Assembly (NCBI GenBank): GCA_951828515.1
Contig: OX639992.1
Location: forward strand, 434,001 to 498,000
Direction of reading: 5' to 3'
DNA from: an uncultured Poribacteria bacterium
GTDB taxonomy: Bacteria; Poribacteria; WGA-4E; WGA-3G
Length of the DNA stretch: 64,000 nt
Shown: one piece after another, positions 13,964-41,630 of the stretch
Position numbering within the stretch: position 1 is the first letter of the stretch
How the letters are laid out: every line of letters starts with the position of its first letter
Made by a program: the position numbers and the translations under genes
The notes under the pieces: model-generated
What the model was told of the DNA's origin: nothing
Database searches by the model: none
What the model saw: the letters and a program-made list of their open reading frames with translations, nothing else

Positions 13964-14143
13964 GCGCAAACTAATAGTTTACGCTACAAGCCCCTGTTAC
14001 GGCACATCGCGCAAACTAATAGTTTATGCTACAAGCCCCTGTTACGGCACATCGCGCAAACTAATAGTTTATGCTACAAGCCCCTGTTACGGCACATCGC
14101 GCAAACTAATAGTTTACGCTACAAGCCCCTGTTACGGCACACG
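13964..14143. repeat. four tandem 45-bp units, each with a hairpin followed by GCTACAAG
   Basis: Units start at 13964, 14009, 14054 and 14099 and differ by one or two bases. Each has AAACTAATAGTTT (perfect 6-bp stem, one-base loop), then TATGCTACAAG. Similar hairpin-CTACAA units stand at 41180-41203 and near 58265. The multiple of three creates false open frames across the array. Confidence 0.85.
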
Positions 14144-29340: not shown

Positions 29341-30228
29341 CTAATGACGGTAGGTTTCACCGATTAAGTTATTGGCGGCGCGAACGGGACGGAAAAGTGT
29401 CTGCCGTTTAGCAGGCATTTCGGCTAACAATTTCGGGTGCGGATCCCAATCGTGCCACTTGCTATTGACTGTATTGTAGCAACTGAAAATAGCAAGCCTG
29501 TCGTTTTCCTCGTTCGTCCACGTGTGCGTACTATGTGTTAACGCCTCTGTGAAAAAGAGGAGCGAACCAGCAGGGCACTCATACGTATCCCAAATGAGTG
29601 AGTCCTGACTTTGTATTGTGTCGGGTGCTGTGTAGACGGCTTTATGACTCGCCGTAATAAACAGGGTGCCTCCGTGTCGATATTTGACAGGATTCAGCTC
29701 CCAGACGATGCGAGTTAACCCACTATAGCCTCTGCCGGGAATACAACGATAAAGGTGCGAATCACCGGGAAAACGGAGCATCCCGTTTCCGTTGTGGGGT
29801 CCAAAGTTTCCATCACCTACCGTTCGGTAAAACAAACTACACGACTCCATGCGGAAGCCATAGCATTCTTGGCTCGACAACGCTGGATGTGCGAGAAATT
29901 CATTGAGAAATCCGATGACATTCGGATGGTCGGCGAGACGCTGCATGGGACCACCGAGCGGAGAACGTTCATGCTCTGGAATCGACTCCGGTTCGTGGCG
30001 GAGTTTATACCCGAACTCTTGCATCTCCGCGAGTTCATCACCTGATAATACACCCGGCACTAAAAGCCATCCGCGCATGTCAAAGAGATATTTCTGTTCT
30101 TGCGTCGGTGCGACAACAGGTGTCCCTTCGGAGGTCGTTTCCGTGAGTTGTGCGTTATCAATGTCGAGTGCCGTCCCAAGATTCTTATCAACAATAAAGG
30201 GTTTGGTGTGATCGGTAACTTGTGCCAT
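29341..30228 (-). CDS. phytanoyl-CoA dioxygenase (PhyH) family oxygenase
   Basis: 295 residues from the ATG at 30228, eight bases behind AAAGGATG; an ATG at 30237 overlaps that site and is less likely. The fold is shown by QKYLFDMRGWLLVPGVLS at the N-terminus, FGPHNGNGMLRFP in the metal region, and ALTHSTHTW with DRLAIFSCYN for the distal His and 2-oxoglutarate Arg. The usual HxD is HNG here, so one ligand is uncertain. It probably hydroxylates a small polar metabolite. Spacers on both sides carry degenerate CAGTCAGCAG-type repeats. Confidence 0.85.
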   Translation of the reverse strand: MAQVTDHTKPFIVDKNLGTALDIDNAQLTETTSEGTPVVAPTQEQKYLFDMRGWLLVPGVLSGDELAEMQEFGYKLRHEPESIPEHERSPLGGPMQRLADHPNVIGFLNEFLAHPALSSQECYGFRMESCSLFYRTVGDGNFGPHNGNGMLRFPGDSHLYRCIPGRGYSGLTRIVWELNPVKYRHGGTLFITASHKAVYTAPDTIQSQDSLIWDTYECPAGSLLFFTEALTHSTHTWTNEENDRLAIFSCYNTVNSKWHDWDPHPKLLAEMPAKRQTLFRPVRAANNLIGETYRH

Positions 30229-30366
30229 AATTGACATCCTTTGTATTGGCTATCGGCTGTCAGGTCGGATTTTTTCAAAAAAAATCCTTTCAGCAGTCAG
30301 TAAAGAGGTTCTCGTTTAAGAATATCCTCTTCTCCTTTCCGGCTGCCGACTACTGACTGCTGATTG

Positions 30367-31572
30367 CTATGCGACTTTGGCGCGTTTGAGGGCATTTTCA
30401 GAGACGCTAAGCGTCTTCGCGACATCTTCATCAGTGTGCGACATAGACATGAACCAGATATGTCCTTCAGGCAGATATAAACCACCATCTAAGGTCGCCT
30501 CGTAGAAGGTTTTCTTGAACCGTTGTTGGCGTTCGTCATCACTGTCGGTACTCAAGCCGAAATAGGGCATGGGTCCGATGCCACCGATGCGGGCATTCTC
30601 AATACCGAGACGTGCCGTCATCTCTCTGTAGCCATCCAGCAACTTTTGTCCCTGCTTCCACATAAAGGCGACTCCGTCCTTCGCTTCGAGTTCCTCGATT
30701 GTGGCGATTGCGGCGGCGACGAGCGATACTTCTCCGTGGAAGGTTGCGGCTACCCAGACATCGCCAACGTCATCCATTATCTCTTCTTTCCCGACAACGA
30801 TAGCCGTGGCGAACCCATTCGCGAGTGCTTTTCCGAAAACGGACATGTCGGGGGTGACCCCGAAGTATTCCTGAGCACCGCCCAAAGAATAGCGGAACCC
30901 CGTTTTGACTTCATCGAAAATCATCAACGCACCGTTTGCATTGACGAGTGCCTTTGCCTCTTCGAGATAACTGTCTTTGGGAAGATCCTGTCCAGAAGGT
31001 TCCATAATCAGACACGCGATCTCGTCAGGGTGTGCTTTAAAGAGGTCGGCAAGCCCTTCGAGATCGTTGAAATCGACGCTGAGTGTGGCGGCAGCAGCAC
31101 TTGATAGATGTCCGCGGGCGTGGCTACACCAATCGTGCCAACCATGATAACCGGATCGAATCACCTTTTCTCTACCGGTGTATGCGCGAGCGAACTTAAT
31201 CGCGCCGGTTGTTGCGTCCGATCCGCCAACAAAGTAGGCGACCCTATCCGCCGACGGGATAATCTGAACCAGCTTTTCGGCGAGTTCTACCTCAAGTGTA
31301 TGTCCAAAATTATAAACATTCCCGCGTTCAACGAGATATTTCGTGACCGTATCAATCACAGTCGGATAGGCGTGCCCAAGGATCATGGGTCCGTATCCCA
31401 TCAGATAATCGATATAATCGTTTCCATCGGCATCCCAAAAATGTGCGCCCTTCGCGCCTGCAATCATAACAGGTCTCGGTGGCTGGCTCTGTTTATGGGG
31501 TTGCCCGCCGCCGACCAACGCGGCTTTGGCGCGCTTCTGCCATGCGAGTGATTTTTCAAAACTTCGTCCCAT
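30367..31572 (-). CDS. class-III PLP aminotransferase/aminomutase
   Basis: 401 residues, fold type I. Glutamate-1-semialdehyde aminomutase-like features: GAHFWDADGNDYIDYLMGYGPMILGHA near the start, MIFDEVKTGFR with the PLP-ring Asp, and the PLP lysine in VFGKALANGF. It lacks the strong hemL context, and the neighbouring genes are oxygenases, so it may be a catabolic omega-aminotransferase or a pathway aminomutase. GGAGGT stands 8 bases before the ATG. Confidence 0.85.
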   Translation of the reverse strand: MGRSFEKSLAWQKRAKAALVGGGQPHKQSQPPRPVMIAGAKGAHFWDADGNDYIDYLMGYGPMILGHAYPTVIDTVTKYLVERGNVYNFGHTLEVELAEKLVQIIPSADRVAYFVGGSDATTGAIKFARAYTGREKVIRSGYHGWHDWCSHARGHLSSAAAATLSVDFNDLEGLADLFKAHPDEIACLIMEPSGQDLPKDSYLEEAKALVNANGALMIFDEVKTGFRYSLGGAQEYFGVTPDMSVFGKALANGFATAIVVGKEEIMDDVGDVWVAATFHGEVSLVAAAIATIEELEAKDGVAFMWKQGQKLLDGYREMTARLGIENARIGGIGPMPYFGLSTDSDDERQQRFKKTFYEATLDGGLYLPEGHIWFMSMSHTDEDVAKTLSVSENALKRAKVA

Positions 31573-31927: not shown

Positions 31928-33301
31928 ATGGCAGCACACCTCTTGACAGATGCGCAGATGCGGTATTTCATCGTGAACGGTTATGTGGCAGTCACCACCA
32001 CGTTGCCTGCGCAATTCCATGATGCAATTTACGAAAAGACGGTAACGGTTTTTGACAAGGAAGGCAATCCGGGCAATAATCTGGTGCCACGGATCCCAGA
32101 GATTCAGCAAATTCTTGACGATCCAAACGTCAGCGGTGCTCTGACAAGTTTGCTTGGCGCGGGCTACTACAAGCAGCCACACCGCCATCCGCACTACAAT
32201 CCTCCGGGTAGTAAAGGGCAAGGGATGCACCAAGATGGTGGGAAACGCTGGTCCCATCATACCCGCAGGCTTCTGGTTTTCTATTACCCGCAAGATACAC
32301 CTATCGAACTCGGTCCGACAGGTGTGGTCCCGACAAGCCACTATTATAGCACACGTGAAGGCGCAGAGATCTCGCCGGAACAACCGATCGTTGGGAAAGC
32401 AGGAACGGTCGCTTTCGCAAACTACGATCTGTGGCACCGTGCGATGCCTAATAGTAGCGAGAAGAAACGCTACATGATGAAGTTCCTCTATGCTCGAATG
32501 TCAGAACCACAGGAACCCACCTGGGCGAACAAGGAAACAGAGTGGGCAAACGGTACACCTATGGGACGTGTCGAACACCAGGAGATGTTCCGACACCTTT
32601 GGGACTGGCATCGTGGCGTGGAAAATAGCGACGCGCACGGGACATCGAACGGAGCATCATTGTCCGGTTTAATCAGTTCACTTAACAGTACATCGGAATC
32701 GACGGGATTGCAGGCGGCTTATGAAATGCCTCGATTTGGCGAGAAGGCAGTGCTTGCCCTGGTGCAGTGCTTGCGAGATGAATCGGAGATGACGTGCCGA
32801 AATGCTTGTTACGCCCTCAACGCCGTCGGAAGCCCTGCCGTTGATGCTTTGCAGGCGGCGTTGAAAGACTCCTGTGAACATGTACGTGATAACGCGGCGG
32901 AAGCACTCGGCGACTTGGGAAATAAGGCAGAATCCGCGGTACCTGCGTTGGTGGAAACGTTAGCAGATGCTTCAGGTTCTGTGCGTTCACACACGATAGA
33001 GGCGTTAGGAACAACAAGCCAATCGAGTTCACTCGCCGTTCCGGGTCTTGTGAAGGCATTAGAGGATCCGCACGACGGTGCCCGGCGAAGTGCGGTATTC
33101 GCTTTGGCGCGGATTGGTCAGAACGCGACTGAGGCAGTCGAGGGTTTACAAAATGTGCTGTTTGATGAGAATCGCTACATCCGCGGCGATGCTGTACATG
33201 CGCTGTATCGTATCGGCACACCGGCGGCAAAGGCAGTGTTGCTACATTACCTTGAGACGACCCGTTGGTGTCCTCTCACCTCAAAAGAGAGTACGTTTTA
33301 A
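31928..33301 (+). CDS. PhyH oxygenase fused to HEAT repeats
   Basis: 457 residues. Residues about 1-200 are a PhyH Fe(II)/2-oxoglutarate oxygenase: metal ligands His101 and Asp103 in GMHQDGG, distal His170 in NYDLWHRAMP, and Arg at 181 in KKRYMMKF. Residues about 255-450 are five or six HEAT/PBS-lyase repeats (LVQCLRDESEMTCRNACYAL, LQAALKDSCEHVRDNAAEAL, LVETLADASGSVRSHTIEAL and so on) that normally bind proteins. Such a fusion suggests a protein or scaffold-bound substrate, by inference. AAAAAGGGGC precedes the ATG. Transcribed alone from its own promoter. Confidence 0.85.
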   Translation: MAAHLLTDAQMRYFIVNGYVAVTTTLPAQFHDAIYEKTVTVFDKEGNPGNNLVPRIPEIQQILDDPNVSGALTSLLGAGYYKQPHRHPHYNPPGSKGQGMHQDGGKRWSHHTRRLLVFYYPQDTPIELGPTGVVPTSHYYSTREGAEISPEQPIVGKAGTVAFANYDLWHRAMPNSSEKKRYMMKFLYARMSEPQEPTWANKETEWANGTPMGRVEHQEMFRHLWDWHRGVENSDAHGTSNGASLSGLISSLNSTSESTGLQAAYEMPRFGEKAVLALVQCLRDESEMTCRNACYALNAVGSPAVDALQAALKDSCEHVRDNAAEALGDLGNKAESAVPALVETLADASGSVRSHTIEALGTTSQSSSLAVPGLVKALEDPHDGARRSAVFALARIGQNATEAVEGLQNVLFDENRYIRGDAVHALYRIGTPAAKAVLLHYLETTRWCPLTSKESTF

Positions 33302-33419: not shown

Positions 33420-34136
33420 CTACGTAAAGAATTCCTCGTTATGAGGTCGGACATCGACTTCAAATGTCCATGCGCTTCGTTCCTGCTGGACTAAAGCCCA
33501 ATAGGTGTCGGCAATCGCATCGGGTTCAAGAAGTGGTTCATTCTCCGAGAGTTTATAGCGTTGCCGCACACCCGGTGTATCAATAACGCCGTCAACGATA
33601 ACATGCGCGACATGGATACCATGAGGACCGACTTCGCGAGCGAGTGCGGATGCTAAGCCTCGCGTTGCATACTTCGCACTGCTGAACGCCAACGCACCTG
33701 CTCTGCCACGGATAGCAGAGGTCGCACCTGTAAAGAGAATACTCCCGCCACCTTTTTTGAGCATTCCCGGAACGACCTGTTTTGAACAGAGGAACCCACC
33801 GAGCGTGCAGACGCGCCACGCCGCCTCAAACGCTTCGGGTGTGAGATCTGCGAAACTTCCCCAAGCTGCGTTTGCGGCATGATTCACTAAGATATCGGGA
33901 TCACCGAGTTCTTCTCGAATACGAGCGAAACTCTCTGATACCTGCTCAGCGTCAGCAATATCCGTGGGGATAGGAATGGCTGTGCGTCCGGATTTTCCCA
34001 ATCTCGTGGATAGATTTTTAATGTAGGCGGATGAGCGAGACAATAGTGCTACATTACATCCTTCGTTTACAAATTTACGGGCGAGTGCAGCCCCTAAACC
34101 GGGACCCACACCTGCAATGACTGCTATTTTTTCCAT
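33420..34136 (-). CDS. short-chain dehydrogenase/reductase with altered active site
   Basis: 238 residues. Cofactor motif AGVGPGLG (9-15 region) and NHAANAAWG correspond to TGxxxGxG and NNAG. The catalytic YxxxK is FSSAK (Phe151-Lys155): the proton-donating Tyr is replaced by Phe, although a Tyr follows at 156. The Ser is probably in TGATSAIRG. The protein may be a catalytically weak or non-redox SDR; alternatively Tyr156 takes over. The start is preceded by the leader repeat CCGCAAGGAAAAATTAAAGT, and upstream of it lies the 114-bp array. Confidence 0.8.
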   Translation of the reverse strand: MEKIAVIAGVGPGLGAALARKFVNEGCNVALLSRSSAYIKNLSTRLGKSGRTAIPIPTDIADAEQVSESFARIREELGDPDILVNHAANAAWGSFADLTPEAFEAAWRVCTLGGFLCSKQVVPGMLKKGGGSILFTGATSAIRGRAGALAFSSAKYATRGLASALAREVGPHGIHVAHVIVDGVIDTPGVRQRYKLSENEPLLEPDAIADTYWALVQQERSAWTFEVDVRPHNEEFFT

Positions 34137-34141
34137 ACTTT

Positions 34142-34830
34142 AATTTTTCCTTGCGGTTCGGTCAAGTGGATTAGTACGTTAGGTGTTTCTTTGCGTATAT
34201 CCGCCTGCGCCGATGTTGCAGGCTATGGGCTTGGATATAACGAAGTCCTTACTTCAATTTTTCCTTGCGGTTCGGTCAAGTGGATTCGTGCGTTAGGTGT
34301 TTCTTGGCGTATATCCGCCTGCGCCGATGTTGCAGGCTATGGGCTTGGATATAACGAAGTCCTTACTTCAATTTTTCCTTGCGGTTCGGTCAAGTGGATT
34401 CGTGCGTTAGGTGTTTCTTGGCGTATATCCGCCTGCGCCGATGTTGCAGGCTATGGGCTTGGATATAACGAAGTCCTTACTTCAATTTTTCCTTGCGGTT
34501 CGGTCAAGTGGATTCGTGCGTTAGGTGTTTCTTGGCGTATATCCGCCTGCGCCGATGTTGCAGGCTATGGGCTTGGATATAACGAAGTCCTTACTTCAAT
34601 TTTTCCTTGCGGTTCGGTCAAGTGGATTCGTGCGTTAGGTGTTTCTTGGCGTATATCCGCCTGCGCCGATGTTGCAGGCTATGGACTTGGATATAACGAA
34701 GTCCTTACTTCAATTTTTCCTTGCGGTTCGGTCAAGTGGATTCGTGCGTTAGGTGTTTCTTGGCGTATATCCGCCTGCGCCGATGTTGCAGGCTATGGAC
34801 TTGGATATAACGAAGTCCTTTTATCCAAGT
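34142..34830. repeat. six tandem 114-bp units upstream of the SDR gene
   Basis: The marker TTGCGG occurs at 34151, 34265, 34379, 34493, 34607 and 34721, exactly 114 apart. On the minus strand each unit ends with CCGCAAGGAAAAATTGAAG, the same leader type that immediately precedes the SDR start codon. Each unit also has the hairpin GCCTGCGCCGATGTTGCAGGC in shortened form GCCTGC/GCAGGC inside TATATCC/GGATATA arms. Units are almost identical (single changes such as ATGGGC/ATGGAC). The entire gap 34137-34846 is this array; the plus-strand open frame through it is an artefact of 114 being a multiple of three. Confidence 0.9.
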
Positions 34831-41242: not shown

Positions 41243-41630
41243 GACTTACGCAAGGCGCAATGAATTGCGCTACTACGAACCGGATCGCCTTTGAGAAAAT
41301 CATGTGTTTACAATACGCAAGACGCAATGAATTGCGCTACTACGAACCGGATCGCCTTCGAGAAATCATGTGTTTACAATACGCAAGACGCAATGAATTG
41401 CGCTACTACGAACCGGATCGCCTTCGAGAAATCATGTGTTTACAATACGCAAGACGCAATGAATTGCGCTACTACGAACCGGATCGCCTTCGAGAAATCA
41501 TGTGTTTACAATACGCAAGACGCAATGAATTGCGCTACTACGAACCGGATCGCCTTCGAGAAATCATGTGTTTACAAAAGGTTTAAGTTTGTAGTAAGGT
41601 GATTTATCGCTTGTTTGTGTAAGTCCTATA
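41243..41630. repeat. element with GACTTACGCA ends enclosing five tandem 66-bp REP units
   Basis: Left end GACTTACGCA at 41243, right end GTGTAAGTCC at about 41617-41626 (inverse, one change). Inside, GCAATGAATTGC starts at 41257, 41324, 41390, 41456 and 41522; the first interval is 67, the rest 66. Each unit has hairpin CGCAAT-GA-ATTGCG followed directly by CTAC. Open frames across the array are artefacts. The ends match those of the element at 58178-58298. 41631-41645 is another TAATTTACTTTGCGG copy. Confidence 0.8.

Follow-up and report, generated by a model that had tools for sequence, protein, structure and literature searches.

A family of PhyH-HEAT fusion proteins with a near-invariant architecture in Poribacteria and Latescibacterota

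Members of the PhyH family such as PHYH, PHYHD1, EctD and SnoK are built on the DSBH fold and carry an HxD...H...R set of residues, and the solved members listed are without a HEAT arm. Repeats of the HEAT_PBS type occur in CpcE/CpcF, NblB and alphaRep, which are without an oxygenase domain and in which the number of repeats is variable or designed. An oxygenase built with HEAT-like repeats is known in deoxyhypusine hydroxylase, where the repeats themselves bind the di-iron centre. Poribacteria, dominant among sponge symbionts, possess PhyH oxygenases in unusually large numbers. Kamke et al. 2014 described this expansion, with >1.9% of genes carrying the domain (PMC3909097); in the available text of that paper the functions of these oxygenases are mostly unknown, and its main text has no occurrence of HEAT and does not describe a fusion. 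In the open-access literature searched, there was no description of a PhyH with HEAT repeats in Poribacteria or Latescibacteria.

The gene analysed here lies in a window of 64,000 nucleotides, i.e., the whole stretch of DNA under study, from an uncultured bacterium of the same phylum, and its product falls in the same Pfam family as the expansion (PMC3909097, in its available text). It has the DSBH fold and the HxD...H...R set in common with the PhyH family, and adds to them a HEAT arm, an HRHxHxN strand and an RWCxxT tail. The closest solved folds of its catalytic part are those of the fungal and bacterial enzymes FtmOx1, SptF, GriE, KanJ, OkaE and PrhA, which show 12-20% identity and are without a HEAT arm, and its HEAT part has sequence and structure matches to CpcE/CpcF, NblB and alphaRep. 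In contrast to deoxyhypusine hydroxylase, the fusion has its putative iron ligands in a DSBH domain of its own and not in the HEAT repeats. The fusions are a conserved family within a known enzyme family, and are apparently undescribed in the literature searched. The gene is laid out as follows.

31928..33301, + strand: PhyH-HEAT fusion gene, 457 aa plus stop (ORF reading, Pfam, relatives)
31928..32617, + strand: PhyH (DSBH) catalytic domain, residues 1-230 (Pfam, model, stand-alone homologues)
32180..32200, + strand: signature strand H85-R-H-x-H89-x-N91 of the PhyH subfamily (conservation; absent from 15 other PhyH domains)
32228..32236, + strand: HxD iron motif H101-Q-D103 (invariant in alignments)
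32435..32437, + strand: putative distal iron ligand H170 (invariant in alignments)
32468..32470, + strand: putative 2-oxoglutarate-binding Arg, R181 (invariant in alignments)
32618..32659, + strand: variable linker, residues 231-244 (entropy 2.82; 237-240 with pLDDT under 50)
32660..33262, + strand: HEAT solenoid, six repeats, residues 245-445 (PF13646 110.4 bits; alphaRep Z up to 21.3)
33263..33298, + strand: invariant C-terminal tail RWCPLTSKESTF, 12 residues (conservation and tail searches)

The fusion ORF runs for 457 codons from an ATG start with zero internal stops, and in a six-frame search of the whole genome this same frame, 463 codons long, held both the PhyH and the HEAT_2 matches. 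An earlier note on this DNA had described a PhyH oxygenase with H101, D103, H170 and R181 in place, followed by about 200 residues of HEAT repeats, and knew of no characterised example. HMM searches found each domain in the one protein and above its Pfam cut-off: PhyH (PF05721) scored 35.5 bits against a cut-off of 22 over residues 58-181 (profile 61-211), and passing this gathering threshold places the protein in the PhyH family, while HEAT_2 (PF13646) scored 110.4 bits against 27.7 in three stretches, with HEAT_EZ, HEAT and HEAT_PBS also matching. The PF13646 score and the solenoid fold both identify HEAT repeats, and six of them, by a visual count from sequence and model helices, occupy residues about 245-445. 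TIGR04436 SpoChoClust_3 (putative 2OG-Fe(II) oxygenase) reached 13.4 to 16.4 bits against a cut-off of 200, and a signal peptide was not evident by eye. The PhyH domain was thus present as described, but Pfam scores only its C-terminal two thirds; as modelled, and as judged from stand-alone homologues of 271-273 aa at loci of a Latescibacterota class, whose end aligns with the PhyH end of the fusion, the domain is complete at about 230 residues. Literature searches likewise turned up no described PhyH-HEAT protein.

The four catalytic residues were found at the positions that had been named, and are among 13 columns invariant in a 38-row alignment that includes stand-alone Verrucomicrobia-type PhyHs only 24-25% identical. 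They were also invariant in 28 fusion representatives under 80% identity (29 representatives had been drawn from 81 distinct sequences, with L066 dropped beforehand for its ambiguous end). An HxD...H facial triad with a 2OG Arg is one of the marks of the PhyH family. From this conservation, the fusion is probably a catalytically active Fe(II)/2-oxoglutarate oxygenase of that family, in which H101, D103 and H170 would hold iron and R181 the co-substrate.

A first structure model had a pLDDT of 73, and HEAT structures crowded the results of its fold search; with the wider 38-row alignment, the 457-residue model reached a pLDDT of 89.6 and a pTM of 0.89. The only stretches listed with pLDDT <50 were 237-240 and 446-457, so that the tail is predicted to be disordered in the monomer. 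Two such domains with an uncertain mutual placement would usually give a much lower pTM, and a single mode of packing of the HEAT arm on the PhyH domain is therefore probable. The PhyH part superimposed on FtmOx1 with Z 16.8 and rmsd 2.8 over 187 aligned residues, which identifies the DSBH fold, and further fold matches were GriE, OkaE, PrhA and AndA, and also SptF, KanJ and SnoK. The HEAT part matched alphaRep (Z 21.3, rmsd 1.9, 142 aligned) and also lay near designed armadillos. A single-sequence PDB search with the fusion gave HEAT matches only, and the PhyH relatives needed a profile; this profile, widened by five distant PhyHs, returned PHYHD1 (3.7e-18) and PHYH (6.6e-18) first, and also SnoK, SyrB2 and EctD. 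Matches of a stand-alone homologue to PARP1 (E 0.08) were taken as noise. To judge by their PDB names, the solved structures related to the PhyH part are mostly small-molecule enzymes, and a fold match to such oxygenases does not identify the substrate.

By their conserved sequence, the fusions belong to a distinct PhyH subfamily, in which the active-site strand reads HR[H/Y]xHxN where Q...K is more usual; residues 85-91 of the window protein are HRHPHYN. Among 26 diverged representatives, all under 80% identity and chosen after L086, L106 and the stand-alone copy of L065 had been dropped, H85, R86 and H89 were present in 26/26 and N91 in 25/26, and HR[H/Y]xHxN is kept in 5/5 fusions of the source genome. 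Conversely, H85, R86 and H89 occurred together in 0/15 of the other PhyH domain rows of the source genome aligned over the strand; nine of these 15 have a lysine at the place of N91, as do most solved relatives in profile alignments. Since residues 85, 87, 89 and 91 alternate along the strand, they should face one common side, and by analogy with PHYHD1 and PHYH this side would be the pocket. A pocket so lined with His and Arg would take a small polar, probably anionic substrate.

HEAT arm and tail together comprise 214 residues in 20 of the 26 representatives (range 213 to 232). Repeat arrays usually change length with ease, and so the constant length suggests a defined geometry. The linker (residues 231-244) had the highest entropy of all segments among the representatives, at 2.82, and the mean entropy was 1.03 for the tail against 1.17 for the DSBH catalytic core. 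R446, W447, C448 and T451 of the tail (RWCxxT) were found in 26/26, a count that holds for members having the HEAT end, L086 and L106 being without the tail. The HEAT part has a negative net charge in 25/26 representatives, so that nucleic acid is not its obvious ligand, and an AlkD-like arm that binds nucleic acid was set aside on this ground.

The tail was also followed by pattern searches. In the source genome, 4 of 13 RWCxxT matches lie in a long frame, 12 codons ahead of its stop, and 4/4 of these are fusions. A search of eight genomes gave 32 matches, two without a locus being left out; the 31 tail-pattern frames comprised 19 long fusions, two short frames with a HEAT end only and ten that matched nothing. 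Since 19/19 long ORFs ending in RWCxxT plus six residues were PhyH-HEAT fusions, the tail, as judged by this pattern, travels with the PhyH-HEAT enzyme and with nothing else in the genomes examined. The two short frames, at L153 and L161, hold only the HEAT end and the tail and are probably broken fusion copies. To go by the sequences, not every member requires the tail, since a Latescibacterota branch (L063, L064, L065, L068, L106, L107 and L108) ends before it and L086, the fifth fusion of the source genome and a 657-aa paralogue, has RWF and a different end. With the near-fixed HEAT length, the invariant tail and an ending that only fusions had among the long ORFs examined, HEAT and tail appear to be integral to a single enzyme.

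A match to the fusion at E<=1e-10 was found in 57/60 relatives. At E<=1e-30, matches were present in 76/82 genomes of the Poribacteria phylum (at least 70% complete) and in 46/47 genomes of one Latescibacterota class, often in several copies, and at 1e-60 in 45/64 genomes of the Latescibacterota phylum, with 0/17 outside that class; these numbers count genomes by the presence of a match at the E-value given, without each match having been read as a full fusion. The six Poribacteria misses make up the whole sample from five families (f6 to f10). Phages gave zero matches to the fusion (tblastn, 1e-5). Identity between the two phyla reaches 59% over the whole length, and in a midpoint-rooted tree of the 29 representatives the Poribacteria and Latescibacterota copies interleave, with five label changes, at least four of them forced. 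The family would therefore be either old, with duplication before the split, or moved between the phyla by transfer. Some Latescibacterota-like members are titled Gemmatimonadetes in GenBank, and one (L063, G084) is of the same class as the Latescibacteria genome G086; at L063:150-16413, in a MAG titled Gemmatimonadetes and placed in the Latescibacterota class, three subfamily members lie within 17 kb, two with HEAT and one stand-alone.

The source genome (5.85 Mb, single contig) had 141 PhyH matches at E<=0.001, in agreement with the expansion as given in the available text of PMC3909097, and five of the 141 are PhyH-HEAT fusions. Some long frames in this genome hold two PhyH matches. The fusion family is found in uncultured, mostly sponge-associated bacteria of two phyla, with several paralogues per genome.

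Fusions in the source genome: the window gene; a tandem pair near 3.93 Mb; one at 5.21 Mb; one at 2.52 Mb

Two neighbours of the window gene were conserved at Poribacteria loci.

30367..31572, − strand: class-III aminotransferase, divergent neighbour (Pfam; 23/26 Poribacteria loci)
29341..30237, − strand: second PhyH protein, beside the aminotransferase (Pfam; 21/26 loci)

The 3/26 loci of the gene's own family from which the aminotransferase is absent all end at contig edges. Neither gene was found at the 14 loci from other families (0/14), where the neighbours differ, and an operon explanation was rejected, since the pair accompanies the fusion only in the gene's own family. An SDR lies near the fusion in both family-f2 loci (of the 14), in the same direction, and is convergent in the window. 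At the one Latescibacterota locus scanned, the neighbours were an SSF (sodium) symporter, a 2-hydroxyacid dehydrogenase, HpcH/HpaI aldolases and another PhyH; these catabolic-looking neighbours lean weakly to small-molecule metabolism.

We propose, as a tentative reading with somewhat less than an even chance of being right, a PhyH oxygenase that acts on a small polar substrate and in which the HEAT arm and its tail serve as a cap or docking arm built into the enzyme. Iron would be held by H101, D103 and H170 and 2OG by R181, the His/Arg-lined pocket would admit the small polar, probably anionic substrate, and the arm, packed on the PhyH domain in one defined way, would with its tail close the active site, either in cis or within a dimer. 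Alternatively, arm and tail would dock on one conserved partner, and oxidation would take place only inside that assembly. Paralogues would differ in substrate. The catalytic set, the fixed order PhyH-HEAT-tail, the near-constant HEAT length, RWCxxT and the two-phylum spread count for the oxygenase reading; the predicted disorder of the tail in the monomer (pLDDT under 50) counts against a cap in cis, and the tail-less branch, L086 and the gene neighbours that differ between families also count against the proposal. Given the near-invariant architecture across two phyla, one structure and one substrate would calibrate the whole branch, and would show if a HEAT arm can serve a 2OG oxygenase as one of its working parts.

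The earlier note had suggested a protein-hydroxylating or scaffold-bound oxygenase, and nothing specific that we found backs either. If a specific protein binds to the HEAT arm and has one of its side chains offered to the PhyH active site, this would suit the closest HEAT/ARM solenoids, which are protein binders (alphaReps, designed armadillos), the invariant exposed tail, which could be a docking motif, and the want of a fixed metabolic operon. However, alphaReps are engineered binders and so their matches are silent on the native ligand, the recognised solved PhyH relatives are mostly small-molecule enzymes, and no partner gene is conserved beside the fusion or kept beyond the family; we regard a protein hydroxylase as unlikely, though deserving some weight. 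As for the premise of the earlier note that HEAT scaffolds bind proteins, HEAT repeats need not do so: CpcE matches the HEAT part of the fusion by sequence, and CpcE-type HEAT proteins handle a bilin. A protein substrate may still fit.

In a metabolon scaffold, the PhyH would be ordinary and the HEAT arm would only tether it, to another enzyme or to itself, with no catalytic role. HEAT arms are common as tethers, and the variable linker (entropy 2.82) and the predicted disorder of the conserved tail are consistent with one. The near-constant HEAT length and the high pTM argue against it, HEAT-less close homologues (L063, L065, L068) make a tether dispensable for that fold, and the tail was not seen on other long proteins in eight genomes; a tether is rather improbable, and the near-fixed arm with its invariant tail speaks for an integral enzyme part over a generic scaffold. 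We give a similarly low chance to an arrangement in trans, in which the active site of one chain is completed by the tail of another, or by a client protein docked on the arm; the enzyme would then modify a macromolecule or be active solely in one specific assembly. In such a reading, the three conserved histidines of the substrate strand might also form a second metal site with the invariant cysteine of the tail.

A nucleoside or nucleic-acid demethylase of the PHYHD1 kind, for 2'-O-methyl nucleosides, is very unlikely. The PhyH profile has PHYHD1 as its best match in the PDB, and in the available text of PMC12709175 a Poribacteria PHYH-like enzyme complements on 2'-O-methylcytidine, but five distant PhyHs had been added to the profile, the HEAT arm is acidic, and the HRHxHxN strand appears to stand where PHYHD1 has a glutamine and a lysine. 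The ribose-contacting residues of PHYHD1 are given there as K102, H105, Q139 and W277 (PMC12709175), and the strand expected to hold the glutamine differs in the profile alignment, with the numbering matched by eye. A catalytically dead PhyH kept as a structural module could be likened to RESC14, a PhyH-fold subunit of a trypanosome RNA-editing complex that is not known to be non-catalytic and that the profile matched only at E 0.26, and is highly improbable against four catalytic residues invariant in 28/28 representatives. A chance ORF, frameshift or assembly artefact is next to impossible and was ruled out by conservation, with stop-free full-length relatives in dozens of independent assemblies and matches in 57 of the 60 relatives, which also disposes of the single-genome frameshift that the earlier note had raised.

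The second PhyH protein (29341-30237, − strand) has H-N-G at 148-150 where HxD might be expected, unchanged in 22/22 sequences including that of the window. HxG is known from halogenases; after alignment to the nearest PDB entry, 4xcb, H-N-G is at most a candidate for the metal site. At L059:3399-7871 (+) and L061:4195-7872 (+), in two related genomes, an ORF of 1,226-1,490 codons lies between the aminotransferase and the fusion gene, and that of L059 is full of WD40 repeats. Beside the fusion gene, positions 34132-34820 of the window hold six copies of a 114-bp unit, 98% alike, which read as an open frame and are possibly a non-coding minisatellite; further tandem arrays lie at 41247-41577 (66 bp x 5) and 13964-14141 (45 bp x 4).
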